Positions 45,545 through 49,526 of a stretch of DNA of 64,000 nucleotides are shown piece by piece. The stretch spans positions 434,001 to 498,000 of the forward strand of contig NZ_JAMQOQ010000001.1 of NCBI RefSeq assembly GCF_031624635.1, in the 5' to 3' direction. The notes beneath the pieces were generated by a model. That model was not told the origin of the DNA. It was given only the letters and a program-made list of their open reading frames with translations, and did no database searches. This stretch comes from Halogeometricum sp. S3BR5-2 (GTDB taxonomy: Archaea; Halobacteriota; Halobacteria; Halobacteriales; Haloferacaceae). Every line of letters starts with the position of its first letter. Position 1 is the stretch's first letter. The translations under genes and the position numbers were made by a program.

Positions 45545-46147
45545 ATGAGTGCTGACCAGCCGCTCGTGCTCATCGTAGAAGATGAGCCGGACCTCGCCGA
45601 CCTGTACGCAACGTGGCTCAGAGAGAACTGTCGTGTCCGCGTCGCCTACGGCGGTCACGAGGCGCTCGACCAACTCGACGGAGACGTCGACGTCGTCCTC
45701 CTCGACCGTCGCATGCCGGACCTCTCCGGGGACGAGGCCCTCGCGGAGATACGGAACCGCGGCTTCGAGTGCCGCGTGGCAATGGTGACGGCCGTCGAAC
45801 CGGACTTCGACATCGTCGCCATGGGCTTCGACGACTACCTCGTCAAACCCGTCTCGAAGGAGGCCCTCGAGGAGACGGTGGACAACCTCCTCCTCAGGAA
45901 CTCCTACAACGACGGCGTGCAGGAACTGTTCTCGCTCGCCTCGAAGAAGGCCCTCCTCGAATCGGAGAAGGAGGCGGCCACCTTGGAGGAGAACGACGAG
46001 TACCGCGAACTCGACGCGCGCCTCTCGGAACTCCGCGCGAACCTCGACGAGACGCTCCGCCAGTTCGACGAGGAACGCGACATCGCGGCCGTCTACCGCG
46101 ACCTCGGCGACAACTCCGCCTTCGAGGACCTCGAAAGCGAGAACTGA
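45545..46147 (+). CDS. Response regulator with HalX output domain
   Basis: A 200-residue two-component receiver. The acidic pair is Glu12-Asp13, phosphoacceptor Asp54 (VVLLDRRMPD), Thr82 and Lys101 (YLVKPVSK); all sites are intact. Residues about 120-195 are the HalX domain (SLASKKALLESEKEAATLEENDEYRELDARLSELRANLDETLRQFD), a coiled-coil-like haloarchaeal output of unknown action. The histidine kinase in the window is 11 kb away, so the cognate kinase is unclear. Two palindromes and a long leader suggest regulated expression. Confidence 0.92.
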   Translation: MSADQPLVLIVEDEPDLADLYATWLRENCRVRVAYGGHEALDQLDGDVDVVLLDRRMPDLSGDEALAEIRNRGFECRVAMVTAVEPDFDIVAMGFDDYLVKPVSKEALEETVDNLLLRNSYNDGVQELFSLASKKALLESEKEAATLEENDEYRELDARLSELRANLDETLRQFDEERDIAAVYRDLGDNSAFEDLESEN

Positions 46148-46324
46148 CGGACCCCGGTCGGCACTCTCTTCGCGGATTTCGGGACCTCTTCCTCCGAGTG
46201 ACGACGTTCTTCCGCCGAGAACGGTCGTACAACGATTATATTCTCTCTGAACACGTCTCCGCGTTTATTCATAAAACTGAGAGTTTAAATTGAGTTAATT
46301 TCATATCAGAACTTCTCGAAAATA

Positions 46325-46332
46325 TTCATTTA
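46325..46332 (+). promoter_or_regulatory. TATA element of the DUF7503 gene
   Basis: ttcattta lies 26-33 nt before the ATG of the micro-protein, in a long AT-rich patch (46240-46335). The spacing supports a leaderless transcript. Confidence 0.5.
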
Positions 46333-46357: not shown

Positions 46358-46501
46358 ATGTCCGACAATGACGCGAACGCTGTCGCACAGTACCTGACCG
46401 ACCACCCCCGCATGATGGGCGTCCTGTTCACGGCGCTGCTGCTGCTGTCGCAGGCGGGCTCCGTCGCGGCGGGGAACCACGTCGGTATCTCGGGTCCGTA
46501 A
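46358..46501 (+). CDS. DUF7503 single-helix micro-protein
   Basis: A 47-residue protein: a hydrophilic start (MSDNDANAVAQYLTDHPRMM), one hydrophobic helix (GVLFTALLLLSQAGSVAAG) and a short end (NHVGISGP). The N-terminus AVAQYLTDHPRMMGVLFT is the signature of the haloarchaeal DUF7503 family as I know it. It is likely inserted in the cytoplasmic membrane or exported. Its TAA stop ends at 46501 and the opposing CHAT gene's stop begins at 46502, so the two genes meet with no base between them. Function is unknown; such micro-proteins occur in several copies in haloarchaea. Confidence 0.8.
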   Translation: MSDNDANAVAQYLTDHPRMMGVLFTALLLLSQAGSVAAGNHVGISGP

Positions 46502-48679
46502 TCAGAACAGATCGAAACTTAGATCGTCGCTCCAGTAGAGCGAATCGTTGACAACGACTGGAATCGTTTCCATATCAAGGAACTCTTGTAACTCCGTTTC
46601 GGTGAGATAGAAGACATCCGCGATACCCGAAGAGAGATAGTACGGAACGTCTCCGGGCATAAACGGTTGAACCATCGAGCCCATGCCGAACTCCGCCGCG
46701 GGGTAGGTGTGAAATTCGACCTCGAACGAGTTGTCGGCCATTTTCTCGATTTCCACCGAGTTAGGAAAAGCCGCCTGAACCTGCGCAATCGGGTGTCCAC
46801 CGTCACCGATCACGAGGTAATCGCTGCCGATGATGCTGTCTTTGCTCACTAAGTTGAGCGACGTCCGAATCGGAAACCCCCTGTTCAACAACCGCGCCAG
46901 CATCGACCCGACTTCGACGGCGTTACTGTTCACCACGTCGTCGAGCGTCACGATACCGGCGATGGCGCCCGCGTCGATGAGGTGCATCCCCTGCTCGTAC
47001 GACCGGCAGGCGTTGAGCAGGAACGCGTCGGTGCCCACCTCCGAGAGCGTCGCGGCGTCCAGCGTCCCGTCGGAACAGTGGAAGCCGCCGTCGTCGATGT
47101 GACCGATGTAGTGGAAGAAGTCGGTCTCGCTCGCGAGCGCGTCGCGGAGTTCCTCCCGCGTCAACTCGTACTGCACCTGCACGTCGAACGGGAGCGCGTC
47201 GCGCGAGCCGTACACCGTCTCCACGTCCTCCCGTTCGTCCGCCATCTTCGGGTCGTTGCAGACGACGGTGATACCGATGTCGCCCTCCGTCGGCGACCGA
47301 TACAGTCGGTTGCGGTACGCCTGCAGCGAGGCCTTGCTCGCGCCGACGGGAGTGCCCTCCCCGACCCACGCCTGTTCGAGCGAGTCGGTCTCCTCGGGCT
47401 GGACGTACGTCCGCTCCGGGAGCGGGGTCGTCCTGCTCGCGCTTCGGGTGAAGTCCTCACCCGAGGCGCCGCCGCCGGCGACGGGTGACGAGGACCGCAG
47501 GAAGGCGCCGACGGCCGCCGCCTGCGTCTCGGAACTCGCGGTCGGTTTCGCCCGCGGCGTCCGGACGACGGCGAGGTCGTTCGCCACGAACGGTAGCAGT
47601 TCGACGTTGTCGGCCGTCGGCGTCACGTGCGTCGTGAGCTTCCACTCCGGGATGTGGTCGGCGACGGCGTCGTACGGCACCCGCAGGTAGGCTTCGACCC
47701 GTTCGGCCAGCGACCGACCGTACAGGTCGGCGAAATCGAGGTCGACCCGCTCCTCGACCGCCCGGCGTTCGTGGAGGTCCACCTGGTAGTAGCCCTCGGT
47801 GCGGGTGAGGCAGTCGAGGAAGAACGTCTGCTTGAGGGCGCGTTCGACGGCCCGTTCGTAGCCCGCCGCCGTATCGAGGTCGTAGGTAAAACCGTTCTCC
47901 GTCCGAAGCCGCGGCGTCTCCCCCTCGACGACGGTGGCGCCGAGGTAGTACGCCAGCGGCGCCGCCACGTACACGTGTCGGTACGTCGCCGGGAGTTCCA
48001 GCGTGACGCCCGTCTCGGGCGCGGTCATGGTCGGCGGCGCGCGGAACGCGTCCCCGCGTTCGATGAGGGGCGGATGCCCCCGGAGCGTCGGGTACGAGCG
48101 TTCGGGCGAGGTGGTCTTCAGCGCCGACCCGAGCAGCGACACCGCTCGCATCATCGACCGCGGGTCGTCGGGGGTCGTGATGGTCGCCGCGGGGCGCTCG
48201 TGGTGCGAGCGCGCGCCGACGAGTACCTCCGCCTCCTCGCCGAACGAGAGCGTCGTCCGCTCGGCGTCGGAACTGATAGTTAGGGGCGCGGTGACTCGGA
48301 CGTACGTCTTGACCGGCGCGAACAGCTCCAAACTGTACGTCGCGCGGGGGAACGACTCCGAGGCGTAGTGTTCGGTCTGACCGAGCATCCGCCCCTCGTC
48401 GTCGCGGACGCAGACCGAGACGACCGACCCGAGGTCGAGCCTGTCGGTGCGGAAGCGCACGGCGGCGTCGGCCGGAAACCAGAACGCGTCCGGGTCGGCC
48501 GGTTCGGGGGCGAGCACCGACGGCGTCGACAGCGCGAACTGGTGACGCTCTATCGGGTCGGTGACGAGTATCCCGTCGCCGCCGGGGACCGGTTCGAGCG
48601 AGAGTTCCAAGTGGGTCCCGGGGGTCTCTCCCGACCGACCCTCTGGATTCTCGAACCGTTCCATCATCTTCTCTGTCAT
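46502..48679 (-). CDS. CHAT-domain (caspase-like) protein
   Basis: A 725-residue protein. The C-terminal part is a CHAT peptidase: His527 in FFHYIGHIDDGG and Cys558 in FLLNACRSYEQG, followed by AIAGIVTLDDVVNSNAV, match the caspase-type His/Cys pair. Residues 1-430 are a beta-rich region of unknown fold (SLEPVPGGDGILVTDP, TYRHVYVAAPLAYYLGATVVEGE), and 430-500 a helical bridge (GASKASLQAYRNRLYR). No transmembrane helix is visible. The last 140 codons have clearly lower GC than the rest. The DUF7504 gene ends 55 nt before its start on the same strand, and the micro-protein gene is converging. CHAT proteases in other systems cleave a partner to trigger defence or death; here that is only a hypothesis. 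Confidence 0.85.
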   Translation of the reverse strand: MTEKMMERFENPEGRSGETPGTHLELSLEPVPGGDGILVTDPIERHQFALSTPSVLAPEPADPDAFWFPADAAVRFRTDRLDLGSVVSVCVRDDEGRMLGQTEHYASESFPRATYSLELFAPVKTYVRVTAPLTISSDAERTTLSFGEEAEVLVGARSHHERPAATITTPDDPRSMMRAVSLLGSALKTTSPERSYPTLRGHPPLIERGDAFRAPPTMTAPETGVTLELPATYRHVYVAAPLAYYLGATVVEGETPRLRTENGFTYDLDTAAGYERAVERALKQTFFLDCLTRTEGYYQVDLHERRAVEERVDLDFADLYGRSLAERVEAYLRVPYDAVADHIPEWKLTTHVTPTADNVELLPFVANDLAVVRTPRAKPTASSETQAAAVGAFLRSSSPVAGGGASGEDFTRSASRTTPLPERTYVQPEETDSLEQAWVGEGTPVGASKASLQAYRNRLYRSPTEGDIGITVVCNDPKMADEREDVETVYGSRDALPFDVQVQYELTREELRDALASETDFFHYIGHIDDGGFHCSDGTLDAATLSEVGTDAFLLNACRSYEQGMHLIDAGAIAGIVTLDDVVNSNAVEVGSMLARLLNRGFPIRTSLNLVSKDSIIGSDYLVIGDGGHPIAQVQAAFPNSVEIEKMADNSFEVEFHTYPAAEFGMGSMVQPFMPGDVPYYLSSGIADVFYLTETELQEFLDMETIPVVVNDSLYWSDDLSFDLF

Positions 48680-48734
48680 CGTTTTAGAGTAAAAGCGTGT
48701 TGGTCGGTCACACTCGGCGCACCGAACCCCGCGG

Positions 48735-49526
48735 TCATTCGAGAACGAGCCAGTCCGACGAGAGGTTGCGGTCGCGGAAGTGCCAGCGCTGGCACAACTG
48801 GGTTCCGTCGAGGCGGAGTTCGACCGTCGCGTCGAACAGCGGTTCGAGCACGCGGACCGCCTCGTCGTCCCGCTCGCGCGGGAGCCAGAAGTGCGCCATC
48901 CCGTCGACGGCGCGGACGTGGTTCGCGAGGACGTGCGCGAACCGGAAGCCGGTTTCGAGGTCGTACTCGGCGACGAGGGTCGGCAGACAGTCGAAGGCGA
49001 CCCGGAGTTCGGCCGGCGCCAGTCCGCCGGCGATGGCGTCGAACTGCTCGACCGTTTTGGTCACCTCCGCGCCCAATTCGGTCACGCCGCCGTCGACGCA
49101 GTGGGCGATGGGGTCGCCTGCGGCGTCGGCGTCGCTGTCGGCGTTCGATTCGGGCTCCGAGTTCGAATCCGAATTCGGCGCCCCCGGTTCCATCGGCGAG
49201 ACGGTCGACCCCGGTCCGTTCGACGCGGCCGCGGACCCCCGCGACGGGGCGGCGAACTGGACGATGCGGGTCCACTCGGGCGTCCGGCGCTCGACGGTTT
49301 CCAGCCGCGAGTCCCGTCCGTCGTCGGTCGCGTTCGTCACGAGGAGCCGACGTCTGGGCGCCGCGTCACCGTCGCCGAGCATCCGCACGGATACCTTCCG
49401 GTAGACGTCCGCTGGCACCGAACCGACGACCAGAAGCGCGCTTCCGCGCTGCTTCAGTCCGTCGAGCGCAGCGGCGAGTCCCGGCGCATCTCCGGGAGCG
49501 CCGCCGGCTCCACCTCCCTGATCCAT
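48735..49526 (-). CDS. DUF7504 family protein (RecA-like, HTR-like)
   Basis: A 263-residue protein with the features of haloarchaeal DUF7504: an early strand GSALLVVGSVPADVYRKVSVRMLGD in the place of a P-loop (the Walker Lys is missing), an internal Ser/Asn/Glu disordered insert (about 110-145), LRVAFDCLPTLVAEYDLETGFRFAHVLANHVRAVDGMAHFWLP, and a C-terminal strand rich in Trp (QRWHFRDRNLSSDW). The fold resembles RecA/KaiC-like regulators. The ATG at 49526 fits a TATA element 25-33 nt upstream. It precedes the CHAT gene and is probably co-transcribed with it, suggesting a regulatory partner. Confidence 0.75.
   Translation of the reverse strand: MDQGGGAGGAPGDAPGLAAALDGLKQRGSALLVVGSVPADVYRKVSVRMLGDGDAAPRRRLLVTNATDDGRDSRLETVERRTPEWTRIVQFAAPSRGSAAASNGPGSTVSPMEPGAPNSDSNSEPESNADSDADAAGDPIAHCVDGGVTELGAEVTKTVEQFDAIAGGLAPAELRVAFDCLPTLVAEYDLETGFRFAHVLANHVRAVDGMAHFWLPRERDDEAVRVLEPLFDATVELRLDGTQLCQRWHFRDRNLSSDWLVLE

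Follow-up and report, generated by a model that had tools for sequence, protein, structure and literature searches.

A locus in the genome of the haloarchaeon Halogeometricum sp. S3BR5-2 raises the question of why the gene for a caspase-like protease should meet, stop codon to stop codon, the gene for a protein of only 47 residues. The locus lies in a stretch of 64,000 nucleotides (contig NZ_JAMQOQ010000001.1, positions 434,001 to 498,000; hereafter the window) and comprises a gene for a CHAT-type protease, a convergent gene for a DUF7503 micro-protein and, upstream of the protease gene, a gene for a DUF7504 protein. An original prediction had read the DUF7503 protein as a membrane-active effector or substrate that is gated by the CHAT protease, in the manner of gasdermin, with DUF7504 as a putative sensor. 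We found that the pairing of protease and micro-protein is real and conserved, but the membrane-effector role is weakened by the existence of partners that end in Gly-Pro and have no helix. The answer that we tentatively prefer, and which we would place a little short of probable, is that the pair forms a peptide cassette, in which the tail of the small protein would be exported or released and would serve CHAT as a ligand or arise as its product, with the DUF7504 protein as an optional regulator.

The arrangement in the window had been predicted correctly. Open reading frame (ORF) calls place the 47-residue and the 725-residue gene exactly where the prediction had them, with 0 bases separating their stop codons. 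The same pairing recurs across the haloarchaeal class, from which 292 genomes were sampled. Homologues of the protease are present in 271 of these, and DUF7503 was found in 250 of the 271 CHAT-positive genomes and in none of the 21 CHAT-negative ones. When loci were picked by a DUF7503 match alone (L069-L132), a convergent CHAT ORF was present at 64 of 64, and all 77 distinct DUF7503-CHAT pairs are convergent, with a median distance of 3 bp from stop to stop (57 pairs lie within 25 bp, and the distance reaches 260 bp). Related species are not independent samples in these locus counts. A global Mantel test of CHAT against DUF7503 distances gave a weak value (0.09, under the permutation maximum of 0.18), probably because the distances are saturated, and a paralogue swap test was used in its place: in genomes with two pairs, the micro-protein fits the clade of its own CHAT in 9 cases out of 10 and is neutral in the remaining one. 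The pairing of DUF7503 with CHAT is more than chance, and its conserved synteny across haloarchaeal genomes is very strongly borne out.

The short median gap and the constant convergent orientation could also be accounted for at the RNA level, if the overlapping 3' ends served mutual antisense control and the small protein were a by-product. However, the gaps that reach 260 bp, the strong conservation at the protein level and the mostly synonymous variation among the repeats described below all speak against such an arrangement, which we consider very improbable.

Outside the class, the only CHAT relatives observed came from four genomes in one family of the phylum, and no such convergent partner lies by CHAT in those genomes; a single Gly-Pro-ending match there is a longer ORF that resembles an unrelated gene. 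A mobile or viral origin of CHAT was considered and rejected, as the family is near-universal across the class and had no match in phages or viral contigs; it is carried by 25 haloarchaeal plasmids. Membership of a known defence system was likewise rejected, PADLOC giving no match for any of the three proteins. Several genomes carry additional copies of the protease. At five loci (L119, L120, L122, L123 and L129; approximately 5.5-11 kb), the micro-gene lies between tandem CHAT genes, of which one converges on it and the other diverges from it; the second CHATs group in a separate clade, and no convergent partner of their own accompanies them. One genome (G124) has 11 CHAT matches, several with differing helix-bearing partners (e.g. 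L178, L188 and L193), one of which has a signal-peptide-like start, an acidic middle of approximately 50 residues and a GIGP end. Elsewhere, three CHAT ORFs lie consecutively on one strand (L250, 1072-8309), apparently through recent tandem expansion. The genome of the window itself has a second CHAT on contig C2 (L148), which lies inside an open frame of 1438 residues; it falls into a second, deep clade of CHATs and is not accompanied by a tail partner. A convergent partner was also absent in genus g44 and at a few other CHATs.

What kind of protease is it? The CHAT protein of the window has no match in Pfam, NCBIfam or PADLOC and does not reach the curated cut-off of the Pfam CHAT model PF12770; a relative (L096) scores just below that cut-off (20.5 bits against 24, E = 3.6e-4). 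An AlphaFold2 model was built with 87 haloarchaeal homologues, and has a mean predicted local distance difference test (pLDDT) score of 89 and a predicted template modelling score (pTM) of 0.90. In a search of PDB folds, residues ~345-669 of the model matched gingipain R (Z 20.3 over 242 residues, 2.8 Å), and further matches were gingipain K, separase (Z 17.7), SAVED-CHAT (Z 16.8) and the TPR-CHAT of Craspase (Z ~15), with caspases and legumain matching more weakly (Z ~10). Residues 27-170, at the N-terminus, are modelled mostly as beta strands and not as TPR. A profile of the family found no match among PDB sequences at E <= 10, so that its relation to known folds is visible by fold only. The two residues singled out in the original prediction, His527 and Cys558, are invariant in 88 of 88 homologues; in the model, each comes directly behind a core strand (the third, 519-525, and the fourth, 550-556), at the positions of the clan-CD His and Cys, and would thus form a His-Cys dyad of that clan. 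On the strength of the model, we confidently assign the protein to the clan-CD cysteine peptidases (separase/gingipain/CHAT), with a caspase-like alpha/beta fold. Residue 476, where the first CHAT strand ends, is acidic in 85 of the 88 homologues (Asp476 in the window), and we take this position to be the usual site of the S1 residue in related proteases. Together with the kinship to gingipain and separase, this hints that CHAT cuts after Arg or Lys.

The micro-protein divides into a leader and a tail. The DUF7503 protein of the window scores 77.3 bits (Pfam cut-off 27), and the alignment of the family has the consensus YL..[HN]P[RK]M.GVLFT..LLLSQAG.[VA].A, after which comes a short tail with a Gly-Pro end. 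The end of the leader resembles a signal-peptidase site of the AxA type, with Ala at -1 in 74 of 77 sequences and Val or Ala at -3 in 73. Counted from the last Ala of this site, the tail has nine residues in 49 sequences, eight in 23 and seven in five, and it ends in GP in 71 of the 77. It is almost never charged, and basic residues precede the helix, which leads us to expect either a topology with the N-terminus inside or a Sec leader that can be cleaved off. The only conserved basic residue is the [RK] of HP[RK]M, at the predicted cytosolic face of the membrane (76 of 78 sequences), and no basic residue follows it in 73 of the 78.

A comparison of 30 species of one genus (g2, loci L197-L226) shows how differently the two parts evolve. 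The 27-residue leader is nearly frozen, with a median amino-acid distance of 0.04 and a proportion of nonsynonymous differences (pN) of 0.03, whereas the nine-residue tail is hypervariable (distance 0.50, pN 0.26); the distance for CHAT is 0.24. Nevertheless, the tail has a length of nine and a GP end in 30 of 30 species. We also observed that the leader is conserved at synonymous sites, where the proportion of differences (pS) is 0.22 against 0.76 in the tail, which suggests either an extra constraint on the leader or replacement that is specific to the tail. A fixed length, fixed ends and a variable interior make up a pattern that is seen in communication peptides, but the frozen leader points to a function of the leader as well.

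Partners that the DUF7503 model does not recognize were sought by our own scan for convergent ORFs ending in GP, within -25 to +60 bp, and not by curated models. Such an ORF is present at 15 of the 28 CHAT loci that lack DUF7503, compared with 1 among 704 other genes of the loci retrieved; six of the 15 are related loci of genus g14, so that the 15 are not fully independent, and the count is 9 of 22 without those six. In these six g14 species, the partner overlaps the CHAT stop by 4 bases and has no hydrophobic helix. It consists instead of a short N-terminus and 4, 5, 7, 7, 10 or 13 tandem copies of a 13-residue unit (e.g. YTADGNGGGISGP) ending in GN[GS][GS]GISGP, and the pattern GN..GISGP is that of the window's own tail, g14 being a sister genus. 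A sister species of the repeat-bearing ones (G290, L087) has an ordinary DUF7503 protein whose N-terminus, MSETDSGTV, is nearly that of the repeat proteins (MSERDSGTV), and in the tree its CHAT branches as the sister of theirs. Most simply, the helix was lost and the tail multiplied inside one genus. Differences between the repeats are mostly synonymous (435:83 in L014 and 178:27 in L019, where approximately a quarter would be synonymous by chance), and amino-acid variation among the copies is confined to the spacer; the tail repeats are under purifying selection. Other DUF7503-negative CHATs face helix-bearing ORFs ending in TPGP, TSGP, SPGP, IGIGP or HPGP, or helix-less ORFs ending in YSGP, YGGP or YTGP, so that partners without a helix are found at L141, L183, L186 and L187 as well as in g14. 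The conserved element of the partner is its C-terminal tail; the partner can dispense with the helix but not with the tail.

These partners bear directly on the predicted membrane-active micro-protein, since several lineages have kept the Gly-Pro tail without the helix, and in g14 have kept it as tandem repeats. In a more explicit form of that reading, CHAT would cleave the micro-protein on its cytosolic side, for instance behind the conserved basic residue in HP[RK]M, and the hydrophobic, uncharged peptide thus released would damage the membrane. The invariant catalytic residues and the extremely conserved leader would suit such a mechanism, and so would the position of the sole conserved basic residue, given that the nearest folds include the Arg/Lys-specific gingipains and separase and that Asp476 is a candidate S1 residue. 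However, membrane topology explains the basic residue equally well, the near-universal cassette without phage or viral match is unlike the patchy modules of defence or suicide, and the helix-less partners conserve the tail instead. In view of this, we think it unlikely that the micro-protein is a membrane effector or substrate of this kind.

The retention of the tail with or without a helix could equally mean that the small protein is an inhibitor, a membrane anchor or a scaffold of the protease, and that CHAT binds the Gly-Pro tail as a short linear motif. The strict pairing and co-inheritance of the two genes would follow, and the repeats of g14, under purifying selection, might then provide a multivalency that replaces clustering at the membrane, induced proximity activating or restraining the protease. 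Against this, positive-inside reasoning and the AxA site would make the tail of the common form extracellular and so separate it from a cytosolic CHAT, and the hypervariable interior of the tail inside one genus is odd for a fixed binding motif. A role as cofactor therefore seems doubtful to us, and we rank it after the peptide cassette and before the membrane effector or substrate.

In the peptide cassette that we prefer, a cytosolic clan-CD protease would be accompanied by a dedicated convergent gene for a small precursor or ligand, the working end of which would be the C-terminal tail of approximately 7-9 residues with its Gly-Pro end. In most species this tail stands behind the near-invariant hydrophobic leader with its signal-peptidase-like AxA site, and would accordingly leave the cell or be presented on the cell's outer side. 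Some lineages lack the leader yet retain the tail, which is even multiplied in tandem. The tail peptide would be a specific ligand or product of CHAT, giving either peptide signalling or a peptide-regulated protease switch, with the DUF7504 protein (a pseudo-KaiC) as an optional regulatory partner. We infer the export and processing of the tail, its binding by CHAT and its role in signalling from sequence.

Several observations weigh against this reading. An export signal is not evident in CHAT, so that the tail, once exported, would need re-import or another target protein, and no transporter is linked to the cassette. Conversely, the tail of the helix-less forms would presumably stay in the cytosol unless it is exported otherwise. 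Conservation of the leader goes well past the requirements of a generic signal peptide and suggests a separate function for the leader. Approximately 17 of the 111 sampled CHATs are without a recognizable convergent partner of their own. Finally, tail and CHAT divergence are only weakly correlated in g2 (rho 0.23), and for this reason we do not claim a ligand-receptor coevolution of the two in that genus.

The third gene was also recognized correctly: a DUF7504 gene lies directly upstream of the protease gene in the window, at a distance of 55 bp, and its product (182 bits against a Pfam cut-off of 27) matches the KaiC/RecA fold with Z ~17, as expected from the RecA-like protein with a degenerate P-loop that had been proposed. 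In the family alignment, VVGSVPADVY replaces the Walker A motif GxxGxGK[ST], and because this motif is lost, hydrolysis of ATP is unlikely; in this respect DUF7504 differs from the KaiC/RecA-like ATPases with which it shares a fold. Its synteny is less general than that of the pair. DUF7504 lies immediately upstream of CHAT at approximately 35 of 88 loci, and elsewhere other genes take its place: at many Natrialbaceae-like loci (e.g. L093 and L104), a gene for an AAA_16/Cdc6-lid ATPase on the same strand, and at other loci, housekeeping genes. DUF7504 is thus an optional member of the cassette, and the possibility that it is a constant third member was ruled out. At two loci (L137 and L138), a HalOD1 output domain is fused to the DUF7504 protein upstream of CHAT, which ties DUF7504 to haloarchaeal signal transduction.

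The features of the locus are given in Table 1. The HalX response regulator that precedes the micro-gene is a conserved neighbour in 13 of the 77 DUF7503-CHAT pairs, and is a possible regulator of the cassette. When upstream regions were compared side by side, AT-rich, TATA-like boxes were found at a comparable distance 5' of the ATG in many relatives, which suggests that the micro-gene is transcribed from a promoter of its own, with little or no leader RNA.

Table 1. Features of the DUF7503-CHAT-DUF7504 locus, in positions of the window.
Feature	Position	Strand	Description
HalX response regulator	45545..46147	+	Directly 5' of the micro-gene, same strand; Pfam Response_reg and HalX
TATA-like element gaaaatattcat	46318..46329	+	Approximately 30-40 nt 5' of the micro-gene ATG; putative promoter
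DUF7503 micro-gene	46358..46501	+	47 aa; Pfam PF24335, E = 6.6e-22; family alignment and tail statistics
Parts of the DUF7503 protein			N-terminal YLTDHPRMMG motif, hydrophobic helix, AxA site (SVAA), nine-residue tail GNHVGISGP
Tail codons of the micro-gene (GNHVGISGP and stop)	46472..46501	+	
CHAT/clan-CD cysteine protease gene	46502..48679	-	725 aa; His527, Cys558; candidate S1 residue Asp476
DUF7504 gene	48735..49526	-	263 aa from the ATG at 49526; Pfam PF24336, E = 1.6e-53; upstream gene of the CHAT operon

How does this cassette compare with known systems? As in CHAT-gasdermin and CHAT-Csx30 (Craspase), a clan-CD protease is tied genetically to one partner, and the TPR-CHAT of Craspase and SAVED-CHAT are among the fold matches of the window's protease. 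In contrast to those systems, the haloarchaeal partner is a protein of 40-50 residues, the N-terminus of the protease is mostly beta strands, and the cassette is near-universal in one archaeal class. The partner in the window matches DUF7503 only and is too small for a gasdermin domain, so a pore-forming partner of the gasdermin fold was not encountered, and genes for gRAMP/Cas7-11, TPR-CHAT or Csx30, which would mark a type III-E Craspase, were absent among the neighbours examined. The locus is thus neither a gasdermin locus nor a Craspase.

The RRNPP, Rgg-SHP and leaderless communication peptide (LCP) pairs of Firmicutes likewise combine a tiny precursor with an adjacent cytosolic protein and a short C-terminal peptide. 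Group III shp genes of streptococci even converge on rgg (PMC3679016), and communication peptides without a leader exist (PMC10518010). By its sequence, the DUF7503 protein, with a leader and a short C-terminal peptide, would fit the layout of an RRNPP/Rgg-SHP precursor. However, its partner is a protease of clan-CD fold and no TPR-type cytosolic receptor, the system is archaeal, and the leader is more conserved than an ordinary secretion signal. The cassette might therefore resemble the bacterial peptide/receptor pairs (Phr, SHP, LCP) at most in the way it works, and stands outside those families.

In Haloferax volcanii, a caspase-like (caspase-4-like) activity has been described without an assigned gene (PMC3615174). 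The CHAT family, which is likewise haloarchaeal and of caspase type, is a candidate for this orphan activity, although Asp476 rather suggests a basic P1 residue and the predicted S1 site disfavours an Asp-specific enzyme. Haloferax volcanii carries both DUF7503 and DUF7504.

In summary, a protease of caspase fold, its catalytic residues conserved, is faced by a tiny gene at most of its loci, and the pair is undescribed in the literature that we searched, where DUF7503 was not mentioned and nothing combined the CHAT domain with haloarchaea or Haloferax. It looks more like a cassette for peptide signalling or regulation than like a device for killing through the membrane. If the tail is a processed peptide, then the pair would constitute a peptide-based regulatory system in archaea. 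A bolder form of this proposal, which we regard as rather unlikely, is that haloarchaea possess a near-universal system of peptide communication or peptide regulation built on a caspase-like protease that senses or produces a Gly-Pro nonapeptide of fixed length, exported or, in one genus, encoded as tandem repeats in a multi-copy precursor, with species-specific tails serving as identity codes. Were the peptide-communication reading true, it would be new to archaea, and would make a caspase-fold protein the partner of the peptide.

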